The notes below the pieces were generated by a model. It ran no database searches. It saw only the letters and a program-made list of their open reading frames with translations, and was not told the DNA's origin. This document shows positions 42,479 to 61,910 of a stretch of DNA of 64,000 bases, piece by piece. Made by a program: the position numbers and the translations under genes. This stretch comes from Aeromicrobium sp. PE09-221 (GTDB lineage Bacteria > Actinomycetota > Actinomycetes > Propionibacteriales > Nocardioidaceae), in NCBI RefSeq assembly GCF_002174305.1, contig NZ_MIJB01000014.1, positions 82,047 through 146,046 on the forward strand, given 5' to 3'. Positions within the stretch are counted from its first letter, which is position 1. Each line of letters starts with the position of its first letter.

Positions 42479-42497
42479 TTAGGTAATCCTCACCTTA
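42479..42497 (-). promoter_or_regulatory. DtxR/IdeR iron box of the ABC exporter operon
   Basis: On the minus strand the site is TAAGGTGAGGATTACCTAA, 15 of 19 matches to TTAGGTTAGGCTAACCTAA, the consensus for DtxR/IdeR. It is close to the start codon, so an Fe(II)-loaded repressor would shut off the operon. Confidence 0.78.
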
Positions 42498-42607
42498 GTT
42501 CGGCCAGCATCGATGCGCGACGGTCGCGGCGCAGGTCGTCCTCTGGGTGTGTTGAGGCAGCCGCTCAGGACAGTCGCGGTCGTGATTCGGCCCGGGCAGG
42601 CCAGGGC

Positions 42608-43190
42608 TCAGCCCTGCGACGGCCCGAGGTTCCACAGGCGCATGTCCCAGCCGAGTTCCCTCGGCTCGCCGGGGGTGAGCCCCGCGGCACGAGCCAGGGC
42701 CTCGATCCCGGCGGGGGTCCGCAGCCCCGAGCCGTAGGCGACGCGCAGCCTCAGGTCCAGTTCGGCGTCGTGGTCGTGCACCTCGTCGCCGGTCTCGGTC
42801 ACGCGCTCGGCCAGCAGCACCGGTACTCGTGCCCCGCCGAGCTTGCGCAGCATGGCGACGGCGGTCTCGTCAGTGAGGCGTTCGAGCAGCCAGGTCGCGA
42901 CGATCACATCCGCTCCGCCGGTCGCCGCGGCAGTGGGATCATCGGCAAGCGTCACCGTCAGGGCGGGGTGCGCGTCGCGCAGGGCGTCCCGCAGCGCCGA
43001 CGATCCGGCGCCCACGAGACGTGCCGCGGCGTAGGACGTCCACTCGTGATGGTGCACGATCGACGGAGCGGCCCAGCGCGAATCCTGGTGGTCGCGTTCG
43101 GTCATCGCGTGGGCGAGTTCCTTGTCGCTGTCGTCGGTCGGAGCGGACAGGACATCTGCCAGGTAACGGCCGTCGCCGTGGGGGCCGCCG
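42608..43190 (-). pseudogene. Methyltransferase half of a SIP-methyltransferase fusion, out of frame
   Basis: The frame from about 43190 reads GDGRYLADVLSAPTDDSDKELAHAMTERDHQDSRWAAPS, then ADVIVATWLLERLTDETA and ends at 42608. It continues the O-methyltransferase-like winged-helix domain at the end of the preceding gene, with a SAM-fold C-terminal portion. A single missing base near 43190 puts it out of frame. An independent start at ATG 43105 (MTERDHQDSRW) overlaps the SIP stop as ATGA, so separate translation as a 165-residue protein is possible. Confidence 0.7.
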
Positions 43191-44397
43191 CTCCCGTGCG
43201 AAGCGTCGCCACGAGTCGTTCCGGAGTCATGTCGAGAGCGTCGAGTGCCGGATCGCCCAGCTCGTCCAGCGCAGTGGCGATGAGCTCGCCCGTTGCCCCG
43301 AGCCGAAGTGAACCGTCGCCGACCAGCGCCGGGTCGGCGGGATCCAGGGCAACCACGTCGAGAGTCGCGAGGTAGCGCAGCAAGCCCCGCAGTGCGGGTG
43401 CGTCGAGGTTCAGTTCACGCGCCAGCGCGGGAACGGAAGCCGGTGCCCGTTCCAGGCGCGCCAGCACGCCCGTCGCGACGGCGGCGCGCAGGACCACCGG
43501 CCGGGTCATGTCGAACGCCTCCTCCACGGCGGCCTCCTCGGCCGCGTCCAGATCGACGGCGTCGGCCGGACGGCTCGACTCGTCAGGCGTGGTGGCGGTC
43601 CGACGCCAGTAACCGGTGATGTCGAGGCAGTCGCGTGGGACCTCACGCTCGACCTTGAGGAAGGTGCGCAACGGTTTGAGTCGCATCGCTTCTCCGGCGA
43701 GCCAGCAGAACACCACTCCCGGCCACCAGGGGGCGGAGGTGATCGCGCGCTCGAGGACATCGCTGGTGCCCGGGGCGGCACCGTCGCGTGGCAGCCAGGT
43801 GACGTCGACGCCCTCGGGCGAGGCGACGTCGAGGCGGTGGGTGTCGTCGGCGATCTCGATGAACACTTGGCCGCGCACGCCGGCGGGCCACTCCTCGAGC
43901 AGCCGCGCGATCGCGGGAAGCGCCGTCTCGTCACCGCCGGCGAGGATCCATTCGACCCCCTCGGGCAGCAGCGCCGAGCTCTTCGGTCCTGCGATGAAAG
44001 CGGTGTCCCCGGGGTGCACGGTCTCGACCCAGGACGAGGCATATCCCGTGCCATGGCGGACGAAATCCAGATCGAGCTCGCCGGATACCGGGTCCCAGCG
44101 GCGTGGGGTGTAGTCCTTCGCCGGGGAACTCCCGGACCAGTCCAGGTGCCCCTCGACCTGTCTCGGCGGCCGCGCCGCGGTCTGGCCGTTGCCGGGAACG
44201 ATGAGCTTGACGTGGTCGTCGAAGCCCTCGTTGCGCAGCGGGGGCACCGCGATGCCGTCGGCGGTCGCGAAGGCGCCGAACTGCGCACCGGTCAGCGTGA
44301 TTCGGCGCATCCCCGGTCCCAGATCGACCACCCGGGAGACGGTCAGTTCGCGCACGCTGATCGGGTAGATCCTCTGCTCGCGTCGGGTGCGGGGCAC
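43102..44397 (-). CDS. Siderophore-interacting protein (SIP) with partial methyltransferase-type domain
   Basis: FAD-dependent ferric-siderophore reductase of the ViuB/SIP family, 431 residues. The FAD domain (about residues 15-130) includes GPGMRRITLTG, RNEGFDDHVKL and YTPRRWD. The C-terminal SIP domain includes FIAGPKSS, WILAGGDETALPAIARLLEEWP and VFCWLAGEAMRLKPLRTFL. It releases iron by reducing Fe(III) in imported siderophores. Residues from about 285 are a methyltransferase dimerisation/winged-helix region (VLRAAVATGVLARLERAP, LRGLLRYLATLDVV). After PERLVATLRTG the protein goes out of frame and stops. It is divergent from the surface-protein operon, with an iron box between. Confidence 0.88.
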   Translation of the reverse strand: MPRTRREQRIYPISVRELTVSRVVDLGPGMRRITLTGAQFGAFATADGIAVPPLRNEGFDDHVKLIVPGNGQTAARPPRQVEGHLDWSGSSPAKDYTPRRWDPVSGELDLDFVRHGTGYASSWVETVHPGDTAFIAGPKSSALLPEGVEWILAGGDETALPAIARLLEEWPAGVRGQVFIEIADDTHRLDVASPEGVDVTWLPRDGAAPGTSDVLERAITSAPWWPGVVFCWLAGEAMRLKPLRTFLKVEREVPRDCLDITGYWRRTATTPDESSRPADAVDLDAAEEAAVEEAFDMTRPVVLRAAVATGVLARLERAPASVPALARELNLDAPALRGLLRYLATLDVVALDPADPALVGDGSLRLGATGELIATALDELGDPALDALDMTPERLVATLRTGAAAPTATAVTWQMSCPLRPTTATRNSPTR

Positions 44398-44552: not shown

Positions 44553-44571
44553 GATGCTTAGGCTCACCTTG
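44553..44571. promoter_or_regulatory. DtxR/IdeR-type iron box between SIP and the surface-protein operon
   Basis: GATGCTTAGGCTCACCTTG contains TTAGGCTCACCTTG, matching 11 of 14 positions of the half-box pair TTAGGCTAACCTAA (12 of 19 overall). It is the weakest of the three iron boxes, but placed midway in the divergent promoter region. Confidence 0.6.
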
Positions 44572-44648: not shown

Positions 44649-46499
44649 ATGTTCTCGGGATTCTCCCGCCGCCCCCTCGTCGCCTCGGGGCTCGTCGCCC
44701 TGGTCGCGCCCGTGGCTCTGACTTCCATCGTCTCGCCGGCCGAAGCGGCCGAGACGCCCACCGACACGCACTCGGTCACGACGCAGTGGAAGTGCAACAT
44801 CTTCTACGGCGACTCCCAGATGTACGACTACGAGATCGGAGTGACCGTCGACCTGCCGACGAGTGTCGCGCCCGGTGAACGCGTCGCATCACGGACGGCG
44901 ACCTGGCGCATCAACGACCGGGGTTACCTGCGGGGTCTCAACGACCGGCCCAACGCCACCGCGCTGCACCCGGACTCGGCGACGTTCGGCCTGCAGGGTG
45001 GCTGGCTGGAGGTCGTCTCGGGCGGCGCGGTCGGCGAGGAGGCCGAGTTCGAACCGGTGACCCTCCCGGTGGACGACCCGGACAGCCAGATCCACGGCGA
45101 GCTGCCCGGTGCGGTGGTCGCCGAGGGAGAGGGGCTGTTCCCGGGTTTCACGGTGCCCGCCGACGCCAGCGGTGAGATCTCACTGCAGTTCGCGAACCAC
45201 CTGCGCCGCGACATCACCCTGGTCACCGGCAGCGTTCCGCGCGTGTTCACCGCCGACGAGTGCAAGCCCGCAGGAGATCTGACCATCGCCACGATCGACG
45301 TCGTCGGCGAGCCCGCTCCCACCGCTGCAACGAAGACGCTGTCCAAGCAGGCGATCTACCAGTGCAAGATCTCCGGATCGACCGGCATCAACGCGGTGAT
45401 CAAGATCAACGCCACCGCGACCGTACCCACGCTGGCTCGGCCGGGAGACCGGTTCCGGGTGCCCTTCACGCTGTCGGTAGAGTTCCCCGCGATCCTGTCG
45501 ACGATGGTCGGCGGATTCGGTGACTTCGACCGCGTGCGCGGTTACAGCGACAACATCGACGTGGCCAGCTACGACGCCGACGGACGACATTCCACCCGGT
45601 TGCCGCGCGTCCTCACCGATGGCCCGATGCCGACATCGGGGGCGTTCACCCTGGAGGCGACCTCCGGAGGCGCGTGGATCGACGTCCCGCAGAACTCGGC
45701 GACGGACGTGGAGATCCGGATGCCGCAAGCCGATCAGATCGATCACCCGATGCTCGCCGCCAACCCCAGCATGGTTCCCGAGGGCTGGGAGCAGATCAGC
45801 TTCACACTCAACGCCCAGATATACAACTCGGCCACGCCGGACGCGACGCCCTTGTTCGCGGTCCTGTTCTGCAAGGCCTACGAATCGCGCCATCCAGGCA
45901 GCACCGAACTCGGCAAGGTCGACGTCGCGGGGACGGAAACTGTGGCGAAGGTGGCGCTGAGCGCCCCCACGTCGGTGAGGCACGGCAAGGCCACAGCGGT
46001 GGCAGTGTCGGTGCCGGGTGCCACTGGCGCGGTGACGCTGACCGGTGCGGGCGCTGCGCAGACGCGGAGCCTGTCCGGCGGCAAGGCATCCTTCGTGGTG
46101 CCGAAGACGCTCAGGGCCGGCCGCTACACGCTGAAGGCCAATTACGCCGGCGATCGCGACGTCAAGGCCGGAACGGTGAGCCGCACGTTGGTGGTGGTGA
46201 AGGCGGGTACTCGGGCGTCGGTTCGGGTGTCGAAGAGGCCGACGTCGAAGAAGCGGGGCAAGGCCGTGGTGACGGTGCGGTCGGTGACTGGTACGAAGCC
46301 GCGGGGCAAGGTCACGGTGACTTTGCGCAAGGGCAAGAAGGTCAAGCGGGTCAGTGCTCGGGTGAATGCGCGGGGTCAGGCGAGTGTGCGGTTGCCGAAG
46401 CTCGCGAAGGGCACGTGGAAGTTCACCGCGGCGTATGGCGGTGACGTCAACCATCTCAAGAAGACCGTCAAGGTCAAGAAACTGAAGGTGAAGAAGTGA
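44649..46499 (+). CDS. Secreted protein with two DUF6801-like domains and Ig-like basic tail, copy 1
   Basis: Protein of 616 residues. A signal peptide (FSRRPLVASGLVALVAPVALTSIVSPAEAAE) starts at ATG 44649, with AGGAAGG upstream. Two domains of about 180 residues follow, each opening with a Cys-bearing strand (WKCNIFYG, YQCKISGS), then VDLPTSVAPGERV or ATVPTLARPGDRF, and closing with Cys (TADEC, LFCKAYE). The C-terminus has two Ig-like domains; the last is very basic (RPTSKKRGKAVVTV to KVKKLKVKK). No anchor is evident. First gene of the 17-kb chain. The role is unknown; a surface ligand-binding protein is inferred from the iron box. Confidence 0.8.
   Translation: MFSGFSRRPLVASGLVALVAPVALTSIVSPAEAAETPTDTHSVTTQWKCNIFYGDSQMYDYEIGVTVDLPTSVAPGERVASRTATWRINDRGYLRGLNDRPNATALHPDSATFGLQGGWLEVVSGGAVGEEAEFEPVTLPVDDPDSQIHGELPGAVVAEGEGLFPGFTVPADASGEISLQFANHLRRDITLVTGSVPRVFTADECKPAGDLTIATIDVVGEPAPTAATKTLSKQAIYQCKISGSTGINAVIKINATATVPTLARPGDRFRVPFTLSVEFPAILSTMVGGFGDFDRVRGYSDNIDVASYDADGRHSTRLPRVLTDGPMPTSGAFTLEATSGGAWIDVPQNSATDVEIRMPQADQIDHPMLAANPSMVPEGWEQISFTLNAQIYNSATPDATPLFAVLFCKAYESRHPGSTELGKVDVAGTETVAKVALSAPTSVRHGKATAVAVSVPGATGAVTLTGAGAAQTRSLSGGKASFVVPKTLRAGRYTLKANYAGDRDVKAGTVSRTLVVVKAGTRASVRVSKRPTSKKRGKAVVTVRSVTGTKPRGKVTVTLRKGKKVKRVSARVNARGQASVRLPKLAKGTWKFTAAYGGDVNHLKKTVKVKKLKVKK
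46215..46499 (+). repeat. 285-bp perfect direct repeat, copy 1
   Basis: Identical by eye to 47975-48259. It encodes the last Ig-like basic domain and stop codon. See the gene-conversion finding. Confidence 0.9.
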
Positions 46500-48259
46500 A
46501 GACGTCGACCGGATACAAGACGATCGCTGCGACTGCGGCCGCAGCGCTGACCGCCGGACTACTCGGCGCAATGACGGGTACGGCACGGGCCGATGAACCA
46601 ACCACCGCGACGGTGGTCCACACTATTTCGACCCAGAAGTTGTCCTGCGATGCGACGCCATGGCTGGCTCCCGGCGTGACGGAGCCTGCCACGGTAGATC
46701 TCAACTTCTATCCGTTCAGCTACGACTATCCCACCGAGGTGAAGGACGGCGAGCAGATCGAGGCGCAGGCGATCTCAGCCACCGTGACGCTCGCTCTCAA
46801 CGCGCAGTTCATGAAGAACAGCATGAAGGCGACCGATGTCGGTTTGACGATCGACGGCATGCGGCTGACTGCGGAGGGAGCTCCTGGCGGATCGGTCGCC
46901 CTCCCGGCCGTGGAACTGGAGAGCATCCCCGCGCCGGTCAACGAGTTCAGCCCGGTCCGGTGGACCGACCGCGAGTTTCTCCTGCCGGCCTACACCGCAT
47001 CGGACACCAATGCCGACGGCTGGTCGGAGCGATCACTGACCGGACCGTTCACCGTGACGGCGAGCGTGGTCCGCGAAGGGGAGACCGAGCCGACGAGCAT
47101 CTCGACGACCTGCGACGAGGAGTACAACGGTAGGATCCGGCTTGCATCGCCGATCGTGGTGAGCCGCTACTCCGATCCCATTGCGGACCGGCCGACCGGT
47201 GAGCCGCTGGCGACACTGAACCTGCACAACGAATTCATGGGTCAGGACAACCCGATCAGTTTCTTCGGCGCGCTTCCGGAGAAAGTCTACGCAGGTCAGA
47301 AGGTGTCGGCGATCTCGGTGGTGGCCCATGAACCCGCAGAGGAATATGACGAGCCCAACGACGGCGGAGCACTCAATACGCGGTGGCACGAGGGCTTCAC
47401 GGCCACGGCCACGGTCGGGCGGCACCGGATCAAGGTCCCGATCACCGTTGCCCCGCCGACGCCTAACGTCTATTCGCGCAATGTCTATCGACTCGAGCTG
47501 GGCGCGTTCGCCATTCCCGCCGACGCCTCCGGCAAGCTGACTCTCGCTCTCGACAACGCGGACCTGGACTGGAAGTTCGTCAGCCGGTACCCCTCGATCA
47601 TGCTGACCGAATCGGAAGCGGAGGTCCCCGACGAGATGCGCGAGTTCCTCATCGAACAACTCGAGGGTGATGGGACGTTGGGTTCGGTCCCTGTGGTGGC
47701 TCGGGGTGCGGTGGGTCTGTCGGTTCCGTCGTCGGTGGCGTATGGCCGCGCCGGTGTCGTGAGTGTGTCGGTACCGGGTGCGACTGGCGCGGTGACGTTG
47801 ACCGGTGCGGGCGCTGCGCAGTCGCGGAGTCTGTCGGGTGGGAAGGTGTCGTTCGTGGTGCCGAGGACGCTGCGGCCGGGGCGGTATGGCCTCAAGGCTG
47901 CGTATGCCGGTGATGGCTCGCATCAGGCTGGCGCGGTTTCGAAGACGTTGGTGGTGACTAAGGCGGGCACGCGTGCGTCGGTTCGGGTGTCGAAGAGGCC
48001 GACGTCGAAGAAGCGGGGCAAGGCCGTGGTGACGGTGCGGTCGGTGACTGGTACGAAGCCGCGGGGCAAGGTCACGGTGACTTTGCGCAAGGGCAAGAAG
48101 GTCAAGCGGGTCAGTGCTCGGGTGAATGCGCGGGGTCAGGCGAGTGTGCGGTTGCCGAAGCTCGCGAAGGGCACGTGGAAGTTCACCGCGGCGTATGGCG
48201 GTGACGTCAACCATCTCAAGAAGACCGTCAAGGTCAAGAAACTGAAGGTGAAGAAGTGA
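46496..48259 (+). CDS. Secreted Ig-like repeat protein, copy 2
   Basis: Protein of 587 residues, GTG 46496 overlapping the previous stop (GTGA). Signal peptide IAATAAAALTAGLLGAMTGTARAD. The N-terminal 400 residues are related to the other copies only in outline (TQKLSCDAT, YPTEVKDGEQIEAQAISATV, CDEEYNG). The C-terminal region has the two Ig-like domains VGLSVPSSVAYGRAGVVSV and the same basic last domain as copy 1. No membrane anchor. Confidence 0.78.
   Translation: MKTSTGYKTIAATAAAALTAGLLGAMTGTARADEPTTATVVHTISTQKLSCDATPWLAPGVTEPATVDLNFYPFSYDYPTEVKDGEQIEAQAISATVTLALNAQFMKNSMKATDVGLTIDGMRLTAEGAPGGSVALPAVELESIPAPVNEFSPVRWTDREFLLPAYTASDTNADGWSERSLTGPFTVTASVVREGETEPTSISTTCDEEYNGRIRLASPIVVSRYSDPIADRPTGEPLATLNLHNEFMGQDNPISFFGALPEKVYAGQKVSAISVVAHEPAEEYDEPNDGGALNTRWHEGFTATATVGRHRIKVPITVAPPTPNVYSRNVYRLELGAFAIPADASGKLTLALDNADLDWKFVSRYPSIMLTESEAEVPDEMREFLIEQLEGDGTLGSVPVVARGAVGLSVPSSVAYGRAGVVSVSVPGATGAVTLTGAGAAQSRSLSGGKVSFVVPRTLRPGRYGLKAAYAGDGSHQAGAVSKTLVVTKAGTRASVRVSKRPTSKKRGKAVVTVRSVTGTKPRGKVTVTLRKGKKVKRVSARVNARGQASVRLPKLAKGTWKFTAAYGGDVNHLKKTVKVKKLKVKK
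47975..48259 (+). repeat. 285-bp perfect direct repeat, copy 2
   Basis: Second copy of 46215-46499, 1760 bases downstream, same orientation. Confidence 0.9.
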
Positions 48260-49767
48260 GAGGACCACTCGCCACGGTCACGGCTGCTGCGCTGGTCGTG
48301 GGCCTGCTGGGCGCCACCGCCGGTGCCGCCCGCGCAGAGCCGGTCGGGGTGAGTCACACGTACGAATGCGACCTGAGCATCAACGAACTGAAGGACGGCA
48401 ATCCGTACGAGTTCGCCACCACCGCGCGGATGGCTCTGCCCAGGAAGGTGGCGCCGGGGACGAGCATTCCGGCGCGCCCGTTCAGCATCGACATCACGCT
48501 GCCGCGGGTACTGTTGGAGTTCGGCGCCAACCACCCCCTGGGGCCGTTCACCCGGCTGGTCGGCCGCGCGGGGACCCTGGCTCTCAACACCACGATCAAC
48601 GGTGTCGAGGGCAAGCACGCGATCGCCGAGGTGACGACGCCCTCGTACGAATTCGACGGGGAACGTGACCTGAGCGTCACCGCCAGCGGAACGTTGTCGG
48701 CGATCGACGTGCCGGCGGGCACCCCCGACGGCTCGGTGATCCAGGTCCGTCTGCCCGACAATGACAACACCCAGGATCCGTGGTTCCCGAGCGCCAGCGA
48801 CACCATGTTCGTCGCCTTCACGATGTTCGCGAACCTGGTCTCCGACGAGACCGGACTGGACTACGACGCCCCGGCGCGCTGCGGTGTCGGCGACAGTGCG
48901 CTACAAGGCCCCGAGATCGCCACGATCGAGGTGGACGATTCACTGATCGCGCCCGAGGTGGCGTTGCTGGTGCCCGCGTCCGTCGTCCACGGGCGGGCTG
49001 CCACGGCGTCGGTCTCGGTGCCGGGCGCCACTGGTGAGGTCACCGTCGTCGGTGCCGGTGAGACCCGGACCGTGACACTCCAGGGCGGAAGTGCCGCGGT
49101 CGTGCTCCCTGGCGATCTGGCCGCAGGTACCCACCAGATCTCGGCCATCTACGACGGCGACGATATCTACGGTCCGGGAGCCGCCGCAGCGAGTCTGACC
49201 GTCGCCCGAGCTCCGTCGGCGGCGCTGAAGGCGAAGGGCGCCTCGATCGTGCACGGCAGGAGCGGAACCATCTCGGTCACGGCGCCCGCCGCAGGCGCGG
49301 TGACGGTGGCTGGCTTGGGCACGAAGACTGCCACGACCGCCGGCCAGGGCCTCGCGTTCACCGTGCCGAAGACGTTGCGGGCCGGCACCACGACCTACCG
49401 AGCCAGTTTCGTCCCGGCGGACGGCAACTACGCGTCGCCCAGCCCGATCGCCGTCCGGGTCGGTGTCGCGAAGGCCGGCACTCGCGCGTCGGTGCGCGTG
49501 TTGAAGAGGCCGACGTCGAAGAAGAAAGGCAAGGCCGTGGTCACGGTGCGGTCGGTGACCGGAACCAAGCCGCGTGGCACGGTCACGGTGACCTTGAAGA
49601 AGGGCAAGAAGACCAAGAGGGTCAGGGCGAAGGTGAACGCCAACGGCCAGGCGAGCGTGAGGCTGCCCAAACTCGCGAAGGGCGCCTGGAAGGTGACCGC
49701 CGCCTATGCCGGCGACGCCAACCACGTCAGGAAGTCCATCAGGAAGAAGCTCAAGGTCACGAAGTGA
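48256..49767 (+). CDS. Secreted Ig-like repeat protein, copy 3
   Basis: Protein of 503 residues, GTG 48256 (GTGA overlap). Signal peptide ATVTAAALVVGLLGATAGAARAE, then one DUF6801-like domain (HTYECDLSIN, MALPRKVAPGTSIPARPFSID, to DAPARCGVGD). Three Ig-like domains follow (EVALLVPASVVHGRAATASV; SAALKAKGASIVHGRSGTISV; the basic RPTSKKKGKAVVTV domain). The last is homologous to those of copies 1 and 2 but has diverged in DNA, so it escaped the recent conversion. Confidence 0.78.
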   Translation: MRGPLATVTAAALVVGLLGATAGAARAEPVGVSHTYECDLSINELKDGNPYEFATTARMALPRKVAPGTSIPARPFSIDITLPRVLLEFGANHPLGPFTRLVGRAGTLALNTTINGVEGKHAIAEVTTPSYEFDGERDLSVTASGTLSAIDVPAGTPDGSVIQVRLPDNDNTQDPWFPSASDTMFVAFTMFANLVSDETGLDYDAPARCGVGDSALQGPEIATIEVDDSLIAPEVALLVPASVVHGRAATASVSVPGATGEVTVVGAGETRTVTLQGGSAAVVLPGDLAAGTHQISAIYDGDDIYGPGAAAASLTVARAPSAALKAKGASIVHGRSGTISVTAPAAGAVTVAGLGTKTATTAGQGLAFTVPKTLRAGTTTYRASFVPADGNYASPSPIAVRVGVAKAGTRASVRVLKRPTSKKKGKAVVTVRSVTGTKPRGTVTVTLKKGKKTKRVRAKVNANGQASVRLPKLAKGAWKVTAAYAGDANHVRKSIRKKLKVTK

Positions 49768-50864
49768 GCCTGCACAGCGTGGTCGAGACCGGATCGAACG
49801 AAGCGAGCCTTCGCGTCTTTGGTGACGTGCTGAACCACGAGACGATCGAGTCCGACGAGCTCGTGCGGGGGGCCGCCCGTGGGATTCGAATGACCTACGT
49901 TTCGCAGGGAGCTTCGGGGGAGCGCCGACCGGTCACCGCCGTGGTGCAGGTCCCGGAAGGGACTGCCCCGGTAGGTGGCTGGCCGGTGATGGCGTACGCC
50001 CACGGCACGAGCGGCGTCGGTGAGCACTGCACTGTCTCGAACCTTCTGGCTCTCCATGGGGACCTCCTGGCACCGTGGATCCAGCGTGGGTTCGCCGTGG
50101 TCGCGACCGACTACGCCGGCATCGGCACACCCGGCGGTCACCCCTATCTTTCCTCCGCCGCGTCGGGGGCGAACGTGATCGACAGCGTCAGTGCGGCGCG
50201 ATCGATGGTCTCTGAGCTCTCAGTGTGCTGGGTGACGATGGGCGGATCGCAAGGCGGTCAGGCGGCGATCGCCACGGCGCACCTGTCGGCCAGCAGGGCG
50301 CCGCACCTGCGCCACGTCGGCGCGATCGCCGTGTGCCCGCCGCTCCTGATCTCGAGGTTCGTCGCCTTGGCGGGCCCGTGGGTGCCACGGCTGCCGGTGC
50401 CTGACTTCGTCACCTACCTGGCCTACATCCTGGCCGGCCTGCGGGTCTCGCGTCCCGACGTCGACAGTTCGCCCTACCTCACCCCGCTGGGTCAGCGCCT
50501 CGTCGACGAGGCGCCGTGGTACGGCTACGCGCAGATGGTGGAGCGTACCCGCGGGATTGGCGTCGGAACGATGTTCCGGCGCGGACTCCGGCGCACGCCC
50601 GTTGCTCGTGCCTTCGACGAGCAGACCCATCTGCCGACCGAGGGCTACAGTGTGCCCGTTCTCGTGGCAGCGGGCGTGTTCGACCCGATCTGCCCGGCGC
50701 CGCTGGCGGAGAGGTTCGTCGCCCGAGCGCGTCGCCGCGGGCAGCAGTTCACCCTTCACCGCTATGTGTCAGGCCATCAGGTCGGGAGCAAGGCGAACGC
50801 CGACGCGATCGCGTTCTCGCTGTCCGTGCTCGGCGCAGATTCTGTCGCGAGGTCGTCATCATGA
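49764..50864 (+). CDS. Lipase-like alpha/beta hydrolase, copy 1
   Basis: Hydrolase of 366 residues, GTG 49764 (GTGA overlap), of the secretory-lipase-like (LIP) family. It has the strand PVMAYAHGTSGVGEHC (oxyanion region), nucleophile block VTMGGSQGGQAAI (G-x-S-x-G), Asp in VLVAAGVFDPICP and His in RYVSGHQVG. No signal peptide is visible. A paralog closes the operon at 60846. In a siderophore setting it could be an esterase that opens ester siderophores to release iron, as Fes/IroE do. In a lipid setting it would be a lipase. Confidence 0.8.
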   Translation: MSLHSVVETGSNEASLRVFGDVLNHETIESDELVRGAARGIRMTYVSQGASGERRPVTAVVQVPEGTAPVGGWPVMAYAHGTSGVGEHCTVSNLLALHGDLLAPWIQRGFAVVATDYAGIGTPGGHPYLSSAASGANVIDSVSAARSMVSELSVCWVTMGGSQGGQAAIATAHLSASRAPHLRHVGAIAVCPPLLISRFVALAGPWVPRLPVPDFVTYLAYILAGLRVSRPDVDSSPYLTPLGQRLVDEAPWYGYAQMVERTRGIGVGTMFRRGLRRTPVARAFDEQTHLPTEGYSVPVLVAAGVFDPICPAPLAERFVARARRRGQQFTLHRYVSGHQVGSKANADAIAFSLSVLGADSVARSSS

Positions 50865-53456: not shown

Positions 53457-55960
53457 TCCTTCGCCTCGCGTGGACCTCGGTCGCGACGGGGTGGACCCGC
53501 TCGATCGCGGTCGGAGTCGCGATCGCGATCGGGGTGTGCCTGCTGTCTCTCACCTCGATCCTGTCGGACACGGCCCGGACGACCGTGGACCGTGGACTCC
53601 ACGTCGAGTACGAGGGAGCGGACATCGTAGTGTCGGCCGGAACGCGCTCGGAGTCCACGACCTCGGGCGAGTCGGTGGGCGCGTCGATGTCGCCGGAGCA
53701 GGTGCGTGCAATCGGTGACGTCGACGGGGTCCAGGCGGTCTCCGCCGTCGCGCGCGGCGCCGCGGTCGTCCGTGCCGGCGATACGGTGCGCGGTATCGAG
53801 ATCGAGAGCCCGTGGGCCGGGCCGCTGGCCTGGCAGGGCACGAGCAGCGGGGAATTCTCCGGCGGCGACGCGCAGATCGCCCTCTCGGCTCAGACGGCGC
53901 GCAGTCTCGGCGTCGGAGTCGACGACCGGGTGCTGCTCGGCCGTCAAGGCGTCGACGCACAGGGCTTCACGGTCTCCGCGATCGTGGACACTCGCGGATC
54001 CTCGCGCCACGTCACTGCCGCCTACGGCATCGTGAATCTCGACGAGGCCAGGCGGCTGGCCGGCATCGACGGGTTCAGCGAGGTTCGCCTGTCGGTGGCA
54101 GACGGTGTGTCCGTGGGGGCGGTCGTCGACGCCGTCAATGCTCTCTCGCCGGGTGGCTGGCCGATGACGGCCGACGAACTGGCCTCCGGGACGGCCGACC
54201 TGTTCGGGTTGGGACTCGACGTCCTCGAACGCGTGACGATCGTGCTGGTCGCGGTCTCGCTCATCGTCAGCGCGCTCGTGCTCGCGACGACCTTCACCAT
54301 CACCGTGGCGGGACGGAGCCGCCAGTCGGCGCTGCTGCGCTGTGTGGGCGCGAGCCGGGGACAGGTGTTCGGATCAGTGGTGGTCGAGGCCGCCCTCGTC
54401 GGAGCGCTGGCTGCGCTCGCCGGTGTGATTGTCGCCGTCGTCCTGACCTGGCTGGCGGCGGTAGCGATCGGCGCTCTGACCGGCGTCGTGTCCATCGCCG
54501 ACGTCACCATCGCGCCGACGGGTTCGGTGTTGGCCCCGTGGCTCGCGGGGGTCGTGCTGGCCGTGATCGCTGCCGTCATACCGGGCTGGACCGCGACGCG
54601 CGTGCCTCCCGTCGCCGCCCTCGGCGCCAGCGTGGGCGCTCGCCCGGCGCATCCCGTCCTCGCCGGGCTCCTCAGCGCCATCGTCTCGCTGGGTCTCGTC
54701 CCGGTCGTGCGAGTCGCCTCGGCGTCGCTCGGTCACGTCGCCAGTTGGGTTCGCTGGCCCTCGGCGGCGCTGGCGTCGGCCAACATCGCGCGCAACGCGG
54801 TCCGCAGTGCGGCCGTGGTGCTGACGGTCGCCATCGGGGTCGCGGTGTGCTCGGGTGCTTGGATCAGCCTGCAGTCGTTGCGCCACATCGCCGTCGAACG
54901 TGTGCTGAGCGAGCCGGGCATCGACGTGGTGGTCGGTGACGGCAATGGGGGAGGGCGGATCACCTCCGACACGGCCAGTCACGTGGCGCGGATACCCGGC
55001 GTCGTCGCGGCCCAACCGGTCGTCGTCACCGACCAGGTCGTGATCCGCGGGAAGGCCGCCGAGATCGCGGACGCGAACCAAGACGTGTCGGACCTCGATG
55101 CGGCCCTCGACGACTCTGGTCTGCGGGTCGAGAGCGAGCGGGGTCAGATGTCGTGGGAGGTTGCCGTCGCCGCGCTGACCGGCGAGCAACTCGACCGGGC
55201 CACCCACGTGCCGTTCGACCTGGGGGAAAGTGAGTCGGGCCCGGTCGTCTACCTGACGGAGTCTGCCTACCCGCCGTTCGAATCCGGTGCGCGAGTCACG
55301 CTGAGTGGTCCGTCCGGACCGGTGGCGGGCGTGCGCGTCGCGTACGTGAAGGACCTTCCGGTACCGGCGATGATCGCCCCCGAACTGTTCGACGAGTTGG
55401 GCGGTTCGAGCAGTTTGCGGTCGGTGTGGCTGCGCCTGGATTCTGAGGCGGATCGTGCCGGCGTTCTCGACCGCGTGCGTGCCGAGGCCGTCCTCGGCGG
55501 CAATCAGGCGGTCGGCGGAACTCTGCCGCTGACGGTGCGGATCGACACGGTCGTCGATCTCGTCGTGGCGTTCACGATGGCGCTGCTGGCCGCGGCCCTG
55601 GTGATCGCGGTAATCGGGGTGTCCAACGTGATGGTGCTGTCGGTGGTCGAGCGCCGCCGCGAGAACGGTCTTCTGCGGGCGCTGGGTCTCGACACCGAGC
55701 AACTGCGCGCCCTGCTGACGACGGAGGCCACGGTGCTGACAGCGCTCGGCTCGGCCCTTGGCCTTCTCGTCGGTGGGTCCGTCGCTGTATGGGCCGTGCA
55801 CGCGGTGGCCGCGACGTTCGGTCTGATCCCCGAGGTTCGCCTCGGGTGGCTCGCGCTCGGTGCCGTCGTGGTGCTCGTGGTGTTCGCGGCCCGATGGGCC
55901 ACCGCGCGGGCGGTCGCCGGGGCCATCTCGAGTCAGCCGGCGCGAACGATGAGCGGATAG
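53453..55960 (+). CDS. FtsX-family ABC permease with two FtsX domains
   Basis: Permease of 835 residues. N-terminal TM (WTRSIAVGVAIAIGVCLLSLTSIL), extracytoplasmic domain 1, then a first FtsX domain of three TMs (VLVAVSLIVSALVLATTF; LVGALAALAGVIVAVVLTWLAAV; LAPWLAGVVLAVIAAVIPGW). A fifth hydrophobic segment, second outer domain (about residues 490-700) and final FtsX TMs follow (VAFTMALLAAALVIAVIGVSNVMVLSV; GSALGLLVGGSVAVWAV; VVVLVVFAARWA). Such 10-TM permeases act on substrates in the outer layer, including lipoproteins, lipids and peptides. This one may release or remodel the surface proteins encoded around it. Confidence 0.88.
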   Translation: MILRLAWTSVATGWTRSIAVGVAIAIGVCLLSLTSILSDTARTTVDRGLHVEYEGADIVVSAGTRSESTTSGESVGASMSPEQVRAIGDVDGVQAVSAVARGAAVVRAGDTVRGIEIESPWAGPLAWQGTSSGEFSGGDAQIALSAQTARSLGVGVDDRVLLGRQGVDAQGFTVSAIVDTRGSSRHVTAAYGIVNLDEARRLAGIDGFSEVRLSVADGVSVGAVVDAVNALSPGGWPMTADELASGTADLFGLGLDVLERVTIVLVAVSLIVSALVLATTFTITVAGRSRQSALLRCVGASRGQVFGSVVVEAALVGALAALAGVIVAVVLTWLAAVAIGALTGVVSIADVTIAPTGSVLAPWLAGVVLAVIAAVIPGWTATRVPPVAALGASVGARPAHPVLAGLLSAIVSLGLVPVVRVASASLGHVASWVRWPSAALASANIARNAVRSAAVVLTVAIGVAVCSGAWISLQSLRHIAVERVLSEPGIDVVVGDGNGGGRITSDTASHVARIPGVVAAQPVVVTDQVVIRGKAAEIADANQDVSDLDAALDDSGLRVESERGQMSWEVAVAALTGEQLDRATHVPFDLGESESGPVVYLTESAYPPFESGARVTLSGPSGPVAGVRVAYVKDLPVPAMIAPELFDELGGSSSLRSVWLRLDSEADRAGVLDRVRAEAVLGGNQAVGGTLPLTVRIDTVVDLVVAFTMALLAAALVIAVIGVSNVMVLSVVERRRENGLLRALGLDTEQLRALLTTEATVLTALGSALGLLVGGSVAVWAVHAVAATFGLIPEVRLGWLALGAVVVLVVFAARWATARAVAGAISSQPARTMSG

Positions 55961-55995
55961 GCCGATATGGACACAGTGAGAGAAGGAAGGCGAGG

Positions 55996-56961
55996 ATGAG
56001 AAACTCCATCGTCAGATGGGCAGTGTTGCTGCCCCTGCTGACCGGTCTCGGCTCGGTCGGCATCGTGGTGGCCGGTGCCCCGGCCGCCACGGCGAAGACC
56101 GTCACGAAACAGGTGACTTACACCTGTCAGGTCGCGGGTGTTCCGGGTGAGAGCAGCATCGGCATCCTGCTCAGCGTTGATGTGCCCGATTCCGTCTCGC
56201 CGGGCGAGAAGGTCTCGATCAAGGGCACGATCACCCTGCGGCTGCCCGAGAACGTGCGGGCTGCGGCCGCAGCCGCCGAGTTGACTGCTGTGCAGGGCTA
56301 TTCGGACACGGTCGCCCTCCCGGTGACGGTCGGCGGCAAGACGACCTTGATCCGCACGTCGCGGATCCAGACGCCGAAGTCCCGCATCCTCAGGCCGTTC
56401 ACCGTCTCGGCGCCGGTCAGCGTCCCGGCCTTCACGGTTCCGGCCGGTGCCACGGGAGAGGTGGTGGTGGAGTTCCCGCGCAATGGATCGGTGGCGAATC
56501 CGAAGCCCGGTGGGCAGCCGGCGAAGGTGGCCTTCACGGCGATGTCGACGGTGTACGGAGAGGCGGGCAGTCAGCAGATCGGTCTGTTCTGTTACTACAC
56601 CCGCGAGATCGACCGGGTCATCGCGAAGGTTCCGGTTCGCGCCGCGGCGCAACAGGCGCCGACGGCCACGACTCTCACGACCCCCACGGCATCGGCATCA
56701 GCCTCGGCCGTGGTGGAGGAGCCGACTGCCCCGGCGGAGACCGAGGTCATGGCGACGACCGAGGCGACCTCCGTCGTGGATGAGTCGGTCGAGGCGTTTA
56801 GGGAGGTCTCGGCCACGGGCGACCAGTCGCGCGAACCGGGGATCTTCATCCCGCAGCAGACGCTCGTGGCGGCCGGCATCGCCGTCGTGGTCGTGGCCGT
56901 CGTCTACGGCGTCCTCGCCGGTCGCCGGGCGCGCCTGCTGATGAAAGGAAGGCCACGATGA
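55996..56961 (+). CDS. Membrane-anchored protein with one DUF6801-like domain
   Basis: Protein of 321 residues. Signal peptide VRWAVLLPLLTGLGSVGIVVAGAPAATA. One domain, from VTYTCQVAGV through VDVPDSVSPGEKVSIKGTI and FTVPAGATGEVVVEF to LFCYYTREI. A Thr/Ala/Glu-rich linker of about 60 residues follows, then the C-terminal TM TLVAAGIAVVVVAVVYGVLAG and basic end RRARLLMKG. Start ATG 55996 with GGAAGGCGAGG before it, 35 nt after the permease, the only sizeable gap in the chain. It resembles heme-receptor architecture in outline but not in sequence. Confidence 0.8.
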   Translation: MRNSIVRWAVLLPLLTGLGSVGIVVAGAPAATAKTVTKQVTYTCQVAGVPGESSIGILLSVDVPDSVSPGEKVSIKGTITLRLPENVRAAAAAAELTAVQGYSDTVALPVTVGGKTTLIRTSRIQTPKSRILRPFTVSAPVSVPAFTVPAGATGEVVVEFPRNGSVANPKPGGQPAKVAFTAMSTVYGEAGSQQIGLFCYYTREIDRVIAKVPVRAAAQQAPTATTLTTPTASASASAVVEEPTAPAETEVMATTEATSVVDESVEAFREVSATGDQSREPGIFIPQQTLVAAGIAVVVVAVVYGVLAGRRARLLMKGRPR

Positions 56962-57020
56962 GCGTGAGTGCCGGGCGTCCCACGATGCGCGCACGTGGGA
57001 CCAGCGTCGGACGACATGAG

Positions 57021-57034
57021 TTAGGCTTGCCTAA
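57021..57034. promoter_or_regulatory. DtxR/IdeR-type iron box upstream of the AraC regulator
   Basis: TTAGGCTTGCCTAA is a 6-bp perfect dyad with a 2-bp centre and matches 12 of 14 positions of TTAGGCTAACCTAA. It lies inside the open frame but before the likely GTG 57072, implying an internal iron-responsive promoter for the regulator and ECF genes. Confidence 0.72.
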
Positions 57035-57071
57035 GTATCGATCGGTTGGCCGGCTGGGAGGTGGCAGGGGC

Positions 57072-57899
57072 GTGGGTCCGAGGCAGCGTCGCGCGCTGGG
57101 CAGCAGCACGATCGGCACCGTCTCCGGCAGCTTCGTCCACGAGGACGCCGACGAGTTGGCGGTCGTGATCGAGGGATCGGCCACGATGCGCTGCGACGAC
57201 AGCTACTTCGAGCTCAATCCACACATCGCGCTGTGGATCCCCGCCGGAACGGACCATCACGTCACCTTGCACGATGGCTCGCTCGTCTCTCCGATCGGTC
57301 TCACCCGCCCGCGCGACGTCCACGCGGGCTGGTCGAGTCTGGCGGAACTGCGCGTCACCGCCCGGTTGCGTGCGCTCGCGATCCAAGATCTGCAGCATCA
57401 CATCAGTGACCTCTACCTCGGCAACGGTCAGGTCCGCGACGGCTACTTCGGTCCCAACCCGGCCAAGACTCGCATCGTCGAACTGCTGCCCGCCCTGGAA
57501 CGGGACGGGCTCATCCTGCGGATGCCCCAGCACTCGGCCGCCGCACGGATCGCCAGGACGCTCCGTGAGCATCCCGCCGATCAGCGCAGTCTGGAGGAAC
57601 TGTCCAAAGAGGTGTTCGTCAGTGCCAAGACCGTCCAGCGCGCCTTCAGTTCCGAGACGGGGCTGAGCTTCAGCGCATGGCGAATGCGCGCGAGGATGCG
57701 CGTTGCCTTGAGCCTGCTGTGCCGCCACGAGCAGGTCGAGGTCGTCGCGCGCCGGGTGGGGTATCAGAGCGTGGCCGGGTTCGTGCTGGCCTACCGCCGC
57801 GAGATCGGCTTTGATCCCCAAGAGACCGCATCGCGTGCGAATCTGGCGCCGACCGGATCCGATCCGGCCGCCCAGCGCGAGTCTCCTCGGTCGTCGTGA
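57072..57899 (+). CDS. AraC-family transcriptional regulator
   Basis: Regulator of about 275 residues from GTG 57072 (ribosome site GGAGGTGG upstream). An alternative start at ATG 56958 would add 38 poorly coding residues containing the iron box. The N-terminal cupin-type sensor (GTVSGSFVHEDADELAVVIEGSATMRCDD, LWIPAGTDHHVTLHD) precedes a C-terminal double HTH: SLEELSKEVFVSAKTVQRAFSSETGLSFSAWRMRARMRVAL and VARRVGYQSVAGFVLAYRREIGFDP. Such regulators often activate siderophore or heme uptake genes when the ligand binds. It overlaps the S component by 4 nt. Confidence 0.85.
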   Translation: MGPRQRRALGSSTIGTVSGSFVHEDADELAVVIEGSATMRCDDSYFELNPHIALWIPAGTDHHVTLHDGSLVSPIGLTRPRDVHAGWSSLAELRVTARLRALAIQDLQHHISDLYLGNGQVRDGYFGPNPAKTRIVELLPALERDGLILRMPQHSAAARIARTLREHPADQRSLEELSKEVFVSAKTVQRAFSSETGLSFSAWRMRARMRVALSLLCRHEQVEVVARRVGYQSVAGFVLAYRREIGFDPQETASRANLAPTGSDPAAQRESPRSS

Positions 57900-58447
57900 G
57901 TGTCGCGTCCACGTGGTCGATGTCGACGCGCGAACTGCTCGTGTGCTCGGCGATCGCCGTGGTCTCCTCGGTCGTGCTGGTGCCCGCGCTGTGGATGCAG
58001 GCCACCGTGGCGGTCGCCGTGCCCGGGCTCTACGCGGTGTTCTCGGGAGCGATCCTGTTCGGCCCGGTCCTCGCGCAGTCGATGCTCAAGCGCGGTGGGG
58101 TGGCGCTGGCCACCTCGCTGATCGGCGCACTGGCGATCATGCCGCTGACCCCGCGCGGTTCGGCCATGCTGGTGCCGCTGGCGTTGCAGGGACTGTTTCT
58201 GGAGGCGTTGTTCGCCGTCGACGGCTACCGACGTTGGCAGACATGGCGTTGGCCGGTGGCGTGTTTGGGCGTTGGCGTGGTGCACGCGGCGGGCGTCTGG
58301 GTCGCCCTTGACCTGGCGTCCATGAACACGGTGTACGCGACGGTCACGATCGCGGTGGTGGTGCTGTCCTACCTGGGTTGGCCGCTGGCCGCCCTCGCGC
58401 TGCGTTCGCGCTTGGCGCTGGCCGGTGTCGGGGTGAGCGCCGCATGA
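57896..58447 (+). CDS. ECF transporter S component-like membrane protein
   Basis: Protein of 183 residues, GTG 57896 (GTGA overlap), five to six TM helices: LLVCSAIAVVSSVVLVPALW, VAVAVPGLYAVFSGAILFG, GVALATSLIGALAIMPL, VACLGVGVVHAAGVWVALDLA, ATVTIAVVVLSYLGWPLAALAL. Its position directly before the A-A and T genes and its size identify it as the substrate-binding S component. No known vitamin-specific family is recognisable. Given the iron boxes, heme or another iron compound is proposed. The heme-type ECF LhaSTA of Staphylococcus lugdunensis shows such a role is possible. Confidence 0.75.
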   Translation: MSVASTWSMSTRELLVCSAIAVVSSVVLVPALWMQATVAVAVPGLYAVFSGAILFGPVLAQSMLKRGGVALATSLIGALAIMPLTPRGSAMLVPLALQGLFLEALFAVDGYRRWQTWRWPVACLGVGVVHAAGVWVALDLASMNTVYATVTIAVVVLSYLGWPLAALALRSRLALAGVGVSAA

Positions 58448-60126
58448 GCGACGGTGCTGCGGTGCTGCGAATGGAATCGGTCGGCGTCGACTTCGGCGGC
58501 CGACGGGTGCTCGATGGAGTCGATCTGACGGTCGATCCCGGTGAGGTGGTGCTGCTCGCCGGTTCGAGTGGTTCTGGCAAGTCGACGTTGCTGCTGACGA
58601 TCAACGGCCTGATCCCGCAGTCGATCGCCGCGACCGTCACCGGGACGCTGGAGGTCGCCGGGCACCCAGTCGCGACGACCTCGACGCCGCGCCTGGCAGA
58701 GCACGTGGCGGTCGTGTTCCAGGACGCGGACAGCCCGTCGGTGACCGGGACGGTTTTCGAGGAGGTGTGCTTCGGGGCCGAGAACCTGTGCGTCGATGCC
58801 ACCGAGATCGAGCGGCGGGCGGAGAACGCCCTACGAGCAATGGGTCTGTGGGAGCAGCGCCACGCGGACCCGTCGCGCTTGTCGGGAGGCCAGCGTCAGC
58901 GGCTCGCCGTGGCGGGGGCGCTCGCGCAGGGCACCCGGCTGCTGATCCTGGACGAGCCGACCGCCAACCTCGATCCGGTGGCGAGTGACGAGCTCTACGC
59001 GTTGCTCGGTGGCCTCGCGGTCAGCGAGCCGCAGACGGCCCCGGCCATCGTGATCGTCGAGCACGATGTCGACCTCGTGATCAACATCGTCGACCGGATC
59101 GTGGTCCTGGGCTCCGACGGCAGGATCGTCGACGACGGCCCGCCGGACCTGCTGTATGCGCCCGAGCGCCTCGCCGCGCTGAGGCAGTCTGGCGTCGCCG
59201 TCCCCGGTCCGATCCATGCCGCGGGATTGCTGCGCGAGCTCGGCTGGCAAGTTTCGCAGACCACCGAGCCGGTGGAACTAGCTCGCCAAGTCCGGTCCGA
59301 TCCGCGGCCCCTTCCGGTCCAGACCGGCGGCCAGCCATCGGCCGAGCCGGGTGAGGAACTGGTCGGTGTGCGCGGCGTCAGCGTGCGTCGTGGCCGTGCG
59401 ATGGTGCTCACCGACGTGAACCTGTCGGTCGCTCGCGGTTCGATCACGGCGCTGATCGGGGTCAACGGTGTCGGCAAGTCGACCCTCGCCCGCACGCTCG
59501 CGGGTCTGTACCGACCAGCCGCAGGGGAGATCGTCTGGGCGCCCGACGTGCCACGGGGGCACCGGGCGGGCCTGGTGTTCCAGAATCCCGAGCACCAGTT
59601 CGTCGGATCGACCGTCTACAACGAATTGGCCCACGGTTGGCGACGGGCCCGCCTGACCGAGGAAGAGGTCGCCGCGCACGTCGAGCCGCTGCTGAGTCTG
59701 GTCGGACTGACCGACATGAGCGATCAGCATCCGTTCACCCTCTCGGGAGGGCAGAAGCGTCGGCTGTCGGTGGCATCCGCGCTGGGCACGGGAACGTCGC
59801 TGCTGGTACTCGACGAGCCCACGTACGGTCAGGATCCGCACCACGGCGCGCGGCTGCGTCGCCTGCTGCTCGACCTGCACACCCGCGGCACGACGATCGT
59901 CGTGGTGACACACGATCTCGCCCTGGTGGAGTCCACGGCGACGGCGGTGGCGCTCATGGCCGGCGGCACCGTCGTGCGGTCGGGCACGGCGCTCGACCTG
60001 CTCGCCGACGATGAGGCGCTGGAGCGTGCCGGACTGCGGCGCCCGGCGATGGATCGTGCCATGTCCACGGTCCCGGGTGGATCGTCATGGTGGCGTTCGG
60101 TGCGAGACGGGCAGGCCGAGTCATGA
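58444..60126 (+). CDS. ECF transporter ATPase, two fused A domains
   Basis: Protein of 560 residues with two ABC domains. Domain 1: [29 protein letters not shown]. Domain 2 (about residue 300 onwards): GVNGVGKST, LVFQNPEHQFVGSTV, LSGGQKRR, LLVLDEPTYGQD. The Q-loop NPEHQ and fused form match EcfA-type ATPases of group II importers. ATG 58444 and its stop overlap both neighbours. Confidence 0.9.
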   Translation: MSDGAAVLRMESVGVDFGGRRVLDGVDLTVDPGEVVLLAGSSGSGKSTLLLTINGLIPQSIAATVTGTLEVAGHPVATTSTPRLAEHVAVVFQDADSPSVTGTVFEEVCFGAENLCVDATEIERRAENALRAMGLWEQRHADPSRLSGGQRQRLAVAGALAQGTRLLILDEPTANLDPVASDELYALLGGLAVSEPQTAPAIVIVEHDVDLVINIVDRIVVLGSDGRIVDDGPPDLLYAPERLAALRQSGVAVPGPIHAAGLLRELGWQVSQTTEPVELARQVRSDPRPLPVQTGGQPSAEPGEELVGVRGVSVRRGRAMVLTDVNLSVARGSITALIGVNGVGKSTLARTLAGLYRPAAGEIVWAPDVPRGHRAGLVFQNPEHQFVGSTVYNELAHGWRRARLTEEEVAAHVEPLLSLVGLTDMSDQHPFTLSGGQKRRLSVASALGTGTSLLVLDEPTYGQDPHHGARLRRLLLDLHTRGTTIVVVTHDLALVESTATAVALMAGGTVVRSGTALDLLADDEALERAGLRRPAMDRAMSTVPGGSSWWRSVRDGQAES

Positions 60127-60836
60127 CGCGCGCCTGGCTGTGTCGGGTCGATCCGCTCGCTCTGGTGGCGGCTGTGCTGCCGGCGACGATCCTGGTGCTG
60201 TTCTCGCGCGGAGTGGCCGTTCCTGCGTGCTTCTTGGGGCTGGGCTTCGGGTTGCTGGTGGCCTCCGGGGCGCCGTGGCGCCGCATCGCTGCGGTGGTGG
60301 CGGGCGCCGCGGCGATGGTGACGCTGTTGACGCTCGCGCTGCGTCCGTGGATTTCCGCCGACCGGGTCGAGGGTGAGCCCTGGGCCATTGCCCTGGCGGC
60401 AGGTCTGCGGGTGATCACGATGATGGTGCTGACGCTGTTGGTCGCGCTCTCGGGACATTCAGGACGCGATCTCGTGCGCTCGCTGGTGACGAACCTGCGG
60501 CTGCCGTACCGGTGGGGGTACGCCGGCCTGAGCGGAGCGCGGCTCTTTCCCGCCGTGGCCGCCGAGCTCGAGCTGGTGCGCTCGGCGCGGGCCGTCCGTG
60601 GTAGCGCCCACCGCGGTCGTCCGTGGAGTCCGGTCCAGCGATTCCTCGAACCCGTCGTGCCGTTGCTCGCCTCGCAGATCCGACATGCCGAACGCCAGGC
60701 GCTCGTGCTGGAGTCGCGAGGATTCGGCGCCTACCCGATGCGTACCGAGCGTGCCGGTCGCCCGTGGTCCGTGACTGACAGTCTGGCCGTGCTGATCATC
60801 TGGGCGATCACTGTCGTCCCATTCGTCGTGCGATGA
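60123..60836 (+). CDS. ECF transporter T component (CbiQ/EcfT family)
   Basis: Membrane protein of 237 residues, several TM helices. It carries the two signature Ala-Arg-Gly-like motifs of the cytoplasmic coupling helices: SARAVRGSA and LESRGFG. It links the ATPase to the S component. It overlaps the ATPase stop by 4 nt. Confidence 0.88.
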   Translation: MTRAWLCRVDPLALVAAVLPATILVLFSRGVAVPACFLGLGFGLLVASGAPWRRIAAVVAGAAAMVTLLTLALRPWISADRVEGEPWAIALAAGLRVITMMVLTLLVALSGHSGRDLVRSLVTNLRLPYRWGYAGLSGARLFPAVAAELELVRSARAVRGSAHRGRPWSPVQRFLEPVVPLLASQIRHAERQALVLESRGFGAYPMRTERAGRPWSVTDSLAVLIIWAITVVPFVVR

Positions 60837-60845
60837 GAGGCCTTC

Positions 60846-61910
60846 ATGAGTGTTGACCCGCTGGCCGGCACGGTCGTCGCCACCGAGGAGTTGGAACCCG
60901 GCCTGCTGGTTCCCGGTGCCGATCGTGGTGTGCTCTTCAGCTATCGATCGGCCGGCTCCGCGGGCGAGCCGCGCGTGGCGACCGCGTCGTTCCAGGCGCC
61001 GGTGCGTGCAGGCCAGGAGCGCCCCGTGGTGGTGTTCTGCCACGGCACCACGGGGGTGGGGGAGCAGTGCTCCGTTTCGCGCGGCGTCGGCCCGGCGATC
61101 GGGGAGTTCCTGGCACCGTGGATAGCCTTGGGCTTCGCGCTCGTCGTTGTCGACTACGCCGGTCTGGGCAGTGAAGGTCCTCATGCCTACCTCAACCACT
61201 TCGGCACGGGGCGCCAAGTCGTCGACTCGGTGCGTGCGGTACATCGGCTCGCGCCGGACCTCGGCGTTCGACTGGACGACCGGTGGATGGTGTTCGGTGG
61301 ATCCCAGGGTGGGCACGCGGCCCTATCGGCGTCGCTGGTTTCGACGCGGGCCCCGGGGCTGGAGCTGATCGGAACGGTCGCGCTCTGCCCGCCCACCGAT
61401 CTGGGTCCGCAGTTCTACTTGGCGGGGCCGTGGGTGCCCTGGCTTCCGGTGAAGGATCTGGTTGCGTACTTCGGGTACATCCTCCACGGCTTCGAGAGCG
61501 CCGATCCGGGTGTGCGCGAGGAACTCGACCGGGTACTGACGCAGCGCGGGCGCGATTTGGTCGATTCGTCGCCGTGGTACCACTACGCCGAGCTGGTGGA
61601 GCGGACGCGTTCGTGGTCGGTCGGGTCGTTGCTGCGCCGCCCGCTCGGAAAGTCGGTGGTGCGCCGATTGCGCGAGCACTCGCGACTGCCGTCGGCGGTG
61701 GCTCATCTGGCTCCGGTGCTCGTGGGTCAGGGGCGGCTCGACCCGGTGGTGCCGTGGCCGCTCACCGGGCGCTACGTGCGGGACAGCCGCGCCGCCGGCT
61801 CCGACATCCGGATGCGTTCCTACTGGACGGGCCACGGTGTCCACGCGGCGGCCCGCCCGGACGCACTGCGATTCGCGTCCGAACGCCTGCGCCAATCGCG
61901 CAGCACGTAG
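60846..61910 (+). CDS. Lipase-like alpha/beta hydrolase, copy 2
   Basis: Hydrolase of 354 residues, paralog of 49764-50864 (VVFCHGTTGVGEQC, VVDYAGLGSEGPHAY, MVFGGSQGGHAAL with the nucleophile, GQGRLDPVVPW, RSYWTGHGVH). No signal peptide. It follows the T component after 9 nt and ends the chain. The pair of enzymes may act on one ligand at two steps. Confidence 0.8.
   Translation: MSVDPLAGTVVATEELEPGLLVPGADRGVLFSYRSAGSAGEPRVATASFQAPVRAGQERPVVVFCHGTTGVGEQCSVSRGVGPAIGEFLAPWIALGFALVVVDYAGLGSEGPHAYLNHFGTGRQVVDSVRAVHRLAPDLGVRLDDRWMVFGGSQGGHAALSASLVSTRAPGLELIGTVALCPPTDLGPQFYLAGPWVPWLPVKDLVAYFGYILHGFESADPGVREELDRVLTQRGRDLVDSSPWYHYAELVERTRSWSVGSLLRRPLGKSVVRRLREHSRLPSAVAHLAPVLVGQGRLDPVVPWPLTGRYVRDSRAAGSDIRMRSYWTGHGVHAAARPDALRFASERLRQSRST

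Follow-up and report, generated by a model that had tools for sequence, protein, structure and literature searches.

The window analysed here, a 64,000-nucleotide stretch (C34:82047-146046) of the 4.0 Mb genome of Aeromicrobium sp. PE09-221 (Nocardioidaceae), carries at 44649–61910 a co-directional gene chain with a complete energy-coupling factor (ECF) importer, and the ATPase of this importer groups with ECF operons that mostly bear putative iron boxes of the DtxR/IdeR type. The importer is, with moderate confidence, likely to take up a ferric siderophore or a similar iron chelate under iron shortage. An iron-carrying compound appears likelier than a vitamin because putative boxes stand at most of the closest ECF relatives in other actinobacteria, some of which adjoin an iron-reductase-type gene. 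Coordinates are window positions throughout; the importer genes, the regulator gene before them and the putative boxes are as follows.

56958..57899, + strand: gene I, AraC-family regulator (HTH_18, 1.1e-14; cupin part below cut-off)
57896..58447, + strand: gene J, S component of the ECF importer (PF09819), with changes at four of the five thiamine contacts
58444..60126, + strand: gene K, fused double ECF ATPase
60123..60836, + strand: gene L, ECF T component (CbiQ)
42479..42497, no strand assigned: putative iron box (DtxR/IdeR-type), 17/19, ~12 bp upstream of the start of a divergent ATP-binding cassette (ABC) exporter ATPase
44553..44571, no strand assigned: putative iron box, 14/19, between the SIP gene and gene A, 77 bp before A
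57016..57034, no strand assigned: putative iron box, 15/19, heading the AraC-ECF-lipase part

Gene J matches PF09819 (YkoE) at 1.7e-11, with 44.8 bits against a cut-off of 25.2, and K, which holds two ABC domains, scores above two NCBIfam ECF cut-offs. J, K and L are adjacent with 4-nt overlaps, so that S, T and two ATPase domains lie together as in group I ECF systems, and the complete S-AA-T importer proposed by a first-pass annotation of this DNA is borne out. In the available excerpt of PMC5037267, YkoE contacts thiamine through Y46, W49, E77, Q95 and D131, and its W49A variant gives no fluorescence response to thiamine. At these five sites our alignment reads YWEQD in B. subtilis YkoE and SIIQV in J, with one of the five kept; many thiamine-type rows likewise have another residue in place of E77. 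The first-pass annotation had named membership of the S component in a known vitamin family as grounds for rejecting its iron reading: J does belong to such a family by Pfam name, and departs from it by pocket. A thiamine-type YkoE and its ATPase are encoded elsewhere in this genome.

At the sensitivity used, the sole protein-database match of J was itself, and an S match was found in 2 of 58 relatives, own genome included. In the other genome, G050 (L044), a 15/19 box stands 24 bp ahead of the S gene, and an AA-T fusion and two ABC half transporters follow that gene. A profile built from J and the G050 S component matched in 105 of the 393 genomes of the class, and 40 loci were fetched from these matches. 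Loci with W49 and Q or E at position 95 were classed as thiamine-type (18 loci); the rest, counted without J and L221, number 29. Within 4.5 kb of S, a box scoring 14/19 or better was found at 16 of these 29 non-thiamine-type loci versus 1 of the 18 thiamine-type loci (L033; Fisher 5e-4, a value that overstates independence because the split was made post hoc and most of the 16 loci share one family). Surrogates gave 0–2 of 29, and the reversed consensus matched three times in 294 kb and four times in 165 kb. In eight of the 29 loci, all eight box-bearing, a SIP gene lies beside T on the same strand (two Pfam-checked), and several operons are ordered S - box - AA - T - SIP - S. The box-linked group spans four sampled families (f1, f2, f34 and f42), f1 including the window, where the 15/19 box at 57016–57034 stands at the AraC gene directly before S. 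Box-bearing ECF operons of f34 (L202, L206, L209, L215, L220) have two S components, one with His in place of the YkoE Trp49 (LHAFV, LHSFV, LHAII), the other keeping the Trp and lacking Q95.

The strongest single result comes from a tree of K and 36 further ATPases, to which 10 of the 29 non-thiamine-type loci, all without a box, contributed no row. One side holds 16 box-bearing rows, three rows without a box and K (20 rows in all); the other holds the 17 thiamine-type rows (support 100/98). The genome's own YkoD (L043) falls on the thiamine-type side, opposite K. The tree thus suggests that the importer is related to ECF systems that bear boxes and not to the thiamine importer.

The boxes were scored against a DtxR/IdeR consensus that we take to be TWAGGTWAGSCTWACCTWA. 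All three sites named by the first-pass annotation are the window's three best matches, the third corrected from 57021–57034 to 57016–57034. Sixty Markov surrogates gave, per 64 kb, 0.17 sites at 14/19, 0.03 at 15/19 and none higher. Genome-wide, at most three mismatches were found at 11 places versus one with the reversed pattern; the 42479 box is one of the five best of the 11 and the sole window box among them. Six of the ten sites outside the window lie at, or at most 100 bp from, iron/heme-type or ABC-transport genes. These neighbours include an HtaA-Big_3_5-LPXTG protein (L161:3982-7944) starting 12 bp after its box, a heme oxygenase gene at 100 bp, two Peripla_BP_2 genes (one 56 bp away, the other with the box inside its called 5' end), an ABC half transporter at 9 bp and a substrate-binding protein at 43 bp. 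Among three further genomic sites (L156, L159, L160), a SIP gene lies ~1.9 kb off in L159 and an ABC ATPase ~1.1 kb off in L160. Two subtilase genes (L163:2-3976, L164:458-3898) lie 22 and 66 bp from boxes, one of them divergent from a Peripla_BP_2 gene with which it shares its box. The genome has two DtxR-family genes. Across 1.55 Mb of related loci only 9 sites reached at least 14/19; the four best include one directly before a MacB-DUF6801 operon (L141) and the one before the G050 S gene, and the other two, judged by eye from N-terminal sequence alone, adjoin in L074 an ABC operon of siderophore type and in L143 a gene for a ferritin-like protein. The excess over the reversed pattern, together with the iron-type neighbours, suggests that the motif works in this genome. 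Iron control of the locus and an iron role for its ECF importer, both put forward by the first-pass annotation, gain support from these boxes and from the box- and SIP-linked ECF group in other families.

Divergent from the chain lies the SIP gene, whose identification as a SIP-type reductase holds, with both family domains present. It is flanked by an exporter.

43102..44397, − strand: SIP ferric-siderophore-reductase-type protein (PF04954 9.6e-35, PF08021 1.4e-21), continuing into an O-methyltransferase dimerisation domain
42608..43105, − strand: C-terminal part of an O-methyltransferase in a different frame, a weak match (E 0.047) that overlaps the stop of the SIP open reading frame (ORF)
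39925..42466, − strand: ABC exporter, DrrA-like ATPase ORF 41501–42466 and ABC2-type permease ORF 39925–41811

The SIP/O-methyltransferase arrangement (42608–44397), with its ATGA overlap, may represent one gene that has been split, a coupled gene pair or a change of frame.

The chain itself comprises 13 genes (A–M) with a 13-codon and a 10-codon ORF, and encodes the S-AA-T importer, a MacB-type pair, five DUF6801 proteins, two LIP hydrolases and the AraC regulator. Counting both mini-ORFs, 12 of its 14 junctions are 4-nt overlaps (ATGA/GTGA). Its extent, its 13-codon ORF and its mostly ATGA/GTGA overlaps had been read correctly at first pass; the count of 12 genes becomes 13, and the 10-codon ORF is added. 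The members outside the AraC-ECF part listed above are these.

44649..46499, + strand: gene A, secreted; two DUF6801 and two Big_3_5 domains (Pfam, iterated profile)
46496..48259, + strand: gene B, one diverged DUF6801 and Big_3_5; N terminus signal-like by eye
48256..49767, + strand: gene C, secreted; DUF6801 and three Big_3_5
49764..50864, + strand: gene D, LIP-family alpha/beta hydrolase with a GGSQG motif, without a signal-like N terminus
50861..52729, + strand: gene E, two DUF6801 domains and a C-terminal hydrophobic helix
52726..52767, + strand: 13-codon ORF, joining E to F through two ATGA overlaps
52764..53456, + strand: gene F, MacB/LolD-like ABC ATPase
53453..55960, + strand: gene G, MacB/FtsX-type permease, 835 aa
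55967..55999, + strand: 10-codon ORF, overlapping the start of H
55996..56961, + strand: gene H, DUF6801 and a C-terminal hydrophobic helix
60846..61910, + strand: gene M, LIP-family hydrolase, 43% identical to D, likewise with GGSQG and without a signal-like N terminus

Five related surface proteins had been proposed, and DUF6801 now unites them: the domain scores above the Pfam cut-off in A, C, E and H, and in B, where Pfam gives 17.7 bits against 26, it is recovered by an iterated profile at 5e-12. Pfam likewise confirms the two lipases. The MacB system stands in so far as F and G are MacB/Lol-like; both miss the thresholds set for the named NCBIfam equivalogs. The Big_3_5 ends of A, B and C (46005–46499, 47765–48259 and 49470–49767) are DNA repeats, 90% and 80% identical, which may reflect recent duplication or conversion. 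Mutator-family transposases flank the locus at 33633–34859 and 61976–63295, with no blastn match to each other, and elsewhere the window holds a direct repeat of ~835 bp (7854–8688 and 12857–13691, 85% identical).

An alternative is that the ECF importer takes up heme and the DUF6801 proteins act as hemophores, in the manner of LhaSTA/Isd or HtaA/HmuTUV. LhaSTA is an ECF system for heme import under iron regulation (PMC7299338, as far as the excerpt goes), this genome has the HtaA-Big_3_5 protein and the heme oxygenase at boxes, and A–C share Big_3_5 with that HtaA protein. These two heme genes, however, are encoded outside the window, and in Pfam searches A, B, C, E and H gave no HtaA (PF04213) or NEAT match up to E 0.1. 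No His or Met is invariant in DUF6801, the S loci gave no match to HtaA and heme-oxygenase seeds, and SIP, named for ferric siderophores, stands beside this ECF system and in 8 of the 16 box-bearing relatives. Heme, the substrate raised at first pass, is therefore unlikely, and the SIP and AraC genes favour a ferric siderophore over it.

The DUF6801 proteins also invite a reading in terms of lipid or sterol-ester uptake, with DUF6801 binding the lipid, the LIP enzymes cleaving it, the MacB and ECF systems moving the products and the boxes reflecting co-regulation only. DUF6801 directly precedes an mce operon in 9 of the 74 loci read (one Pfam-checked), and the chain has its two LIP-family hydrolases. 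Six genus mates (L032, L033, L035, L082, L086, L088) carry a ykoEDC set between DUF6801 genes, directly before the mce operon, but these sets are of the thiamine type, whereas the ATPase K groups with box-bearing ECF operons. ECF S components, moreover, are known to bind small cofactors and not bulk lipid. We regard lipid uptake as quite improbable. That the system is a diverged thiamine, hydroxymethylpyrimidine (HMP) or other cofactor importer under iron control, perhaps feeding iron-sparing metabolism, is very improbable: J does match YkoE by profile and keeps Q95, but Y46, W49, E77 and D131 are all changed, K does not group with YkoD, and the genome has its thiamine-type system elsewhere.

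Several observations weigh against uptake of an iron chelate by the whole locus. J retains Q95, as thiamine-type S components do. With four and five mismatches, the window boxes at 57016 and 44553 are weak and lie outside the genome's 11; for gene I the alternative starts are 56958 and the in-frame GTG at 57072, and the 57016 box falls inside the AraC ORF with the former and upstream only with the latter. The thiamine-type/other split was drawn with the first 20 loci already known, f34 supplies 13 of the 16 box-bearing loci, and 13 of the 29 loci in the non-thiamine-type set lack a box of 14/19 or better. K may be sister to the other 19 rows on its side of the tree and not inside them (group without K: 79/48). 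The window SIP sits in a neighbouring unit, outside the ECF operon, and is only 27–32% identical to six SIPs from ECF operons. Among six other MacB-DUF6801 operons a putative box was found at only one, and neither DUF6801, a MacB permease, LIP nor this AraC was found in L044 or in any S locus from L196 onward, the box-bearing ECF relatives included. The iron role of DUF6801 proposed at first pass is thus the weaker part of the reading, because the domain also occurs before Mce lipid importers and in MacB operons mostly without boxes; DUF6801 is not named in the literature searched. The whole gene set as a unit was found in no other locus fetched. Mycobacteriales, the order in which a survey of the chain had been proposed at first pass, is not the right frame either, the host being an Aeromicrobium of the Nocardioidaceae.

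Under the ferric-chelate reading, an IdeR-type regulator would repress at the boxes, with the exporter, SIP, A–H and I–M as separate units. Iron shortage would free the boxes, and the surface proteins, the MacB pair, AraC, ECF, the hydrolases, SIP and the exporter would be made. The S component would bind the chelate directly, with K and L driving uptake; SIP would carry out the cytosolic reduction of the iron, and both LIP hydrolases may cleave the chelator. AraC regulators of siderophore loci sense the chelate, and gene I may sense the imported one. Least supported are the roles of the DUF6801 proteins, which might collect the chelate or retain it at the cell surface, and of the MacB pair, which might handle either those proteins or the emptied chelator. 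IucA/IucC gave no match in the genome. Nonribosomal peptide synthetase condensation domains occur in ORFs of 2808 and 1821 aa (G000:C106:62557-80394, L238-L241), the product of which is possibly a siderophore.

The system resembles YkoEDC of B. subtilis, as described in the excerpt of PMC5037267, in keeping a PF09819 S component, a fused double ATPase and a CbiQ-type T component together, in the same S-AA-T order as the genome's own thiamine-type ykoEDC copy. It differs in its changed thiamine contacts, its iron boxes and an ATPase that the tree places opposite the thiamine-type rows. LhaSTA of S. lugdunensis is comparable as an ECF importer whose iron-regulated locus also encodes surface proteins; it differs in having a single ATPase gene, regulation by Fur and partners of the Isd system (PMC7299338, in the part available). 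In S. equi, siderophore iron depends on EqbHIJ, an ABC importer encoded by three genes whose locus also encodes a DtxR-like regulator and YbtPQ-like proteins (PMC3672683). Compared by description, DtxR-type control is common to both, and the YbtPQ-like half transporters have a counterpart in the half transporters after the G050 ECF genes; unlike the window, the EqbHIJ locus contains siderophore synthesis genes. HtaA/HmuTUV of corynebacteria is a heme uptake system of box-controlled secreted surface proteins and a membrane importer; the window instead has DUF6801 for HtaA, and an ECF importer. Closest for the MacB part are the six Nocardioidaceae MacB-DUF6801 operons, in which a MacB-like ATPase and permease are followed by one or two DUF6801 domains, but which, unlike the window, have no labelled YkoE-type ECF, AraC or LIP gene beside them.

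ECF transporters are known for vitamins and metals, with one heme case (PMC7299338, excerpt), and no actinobacterial ECF siderophore importer was among the literature matches listed. We tentatively suggest, as a possibility that goes beyond this locus, that the YkoE-type ECF fold has a further use widespread in actinobacteria: an ECF family under IdeR control, often with SIP alongside, would import ferric siderophores without a lipoprotein receptor, and would here be coupled to DUF6801 surface proteins, a MacB pair and two esterases as a complete capture-import-release pathway. If so, the box-linked ECF group, with SIP in half of its box-bearing operons, would add a route for iron-chelate import, and annotations such as ‘HMP/thiamine permease’ and ‘cobalt transport’ would now be hiding such importers.

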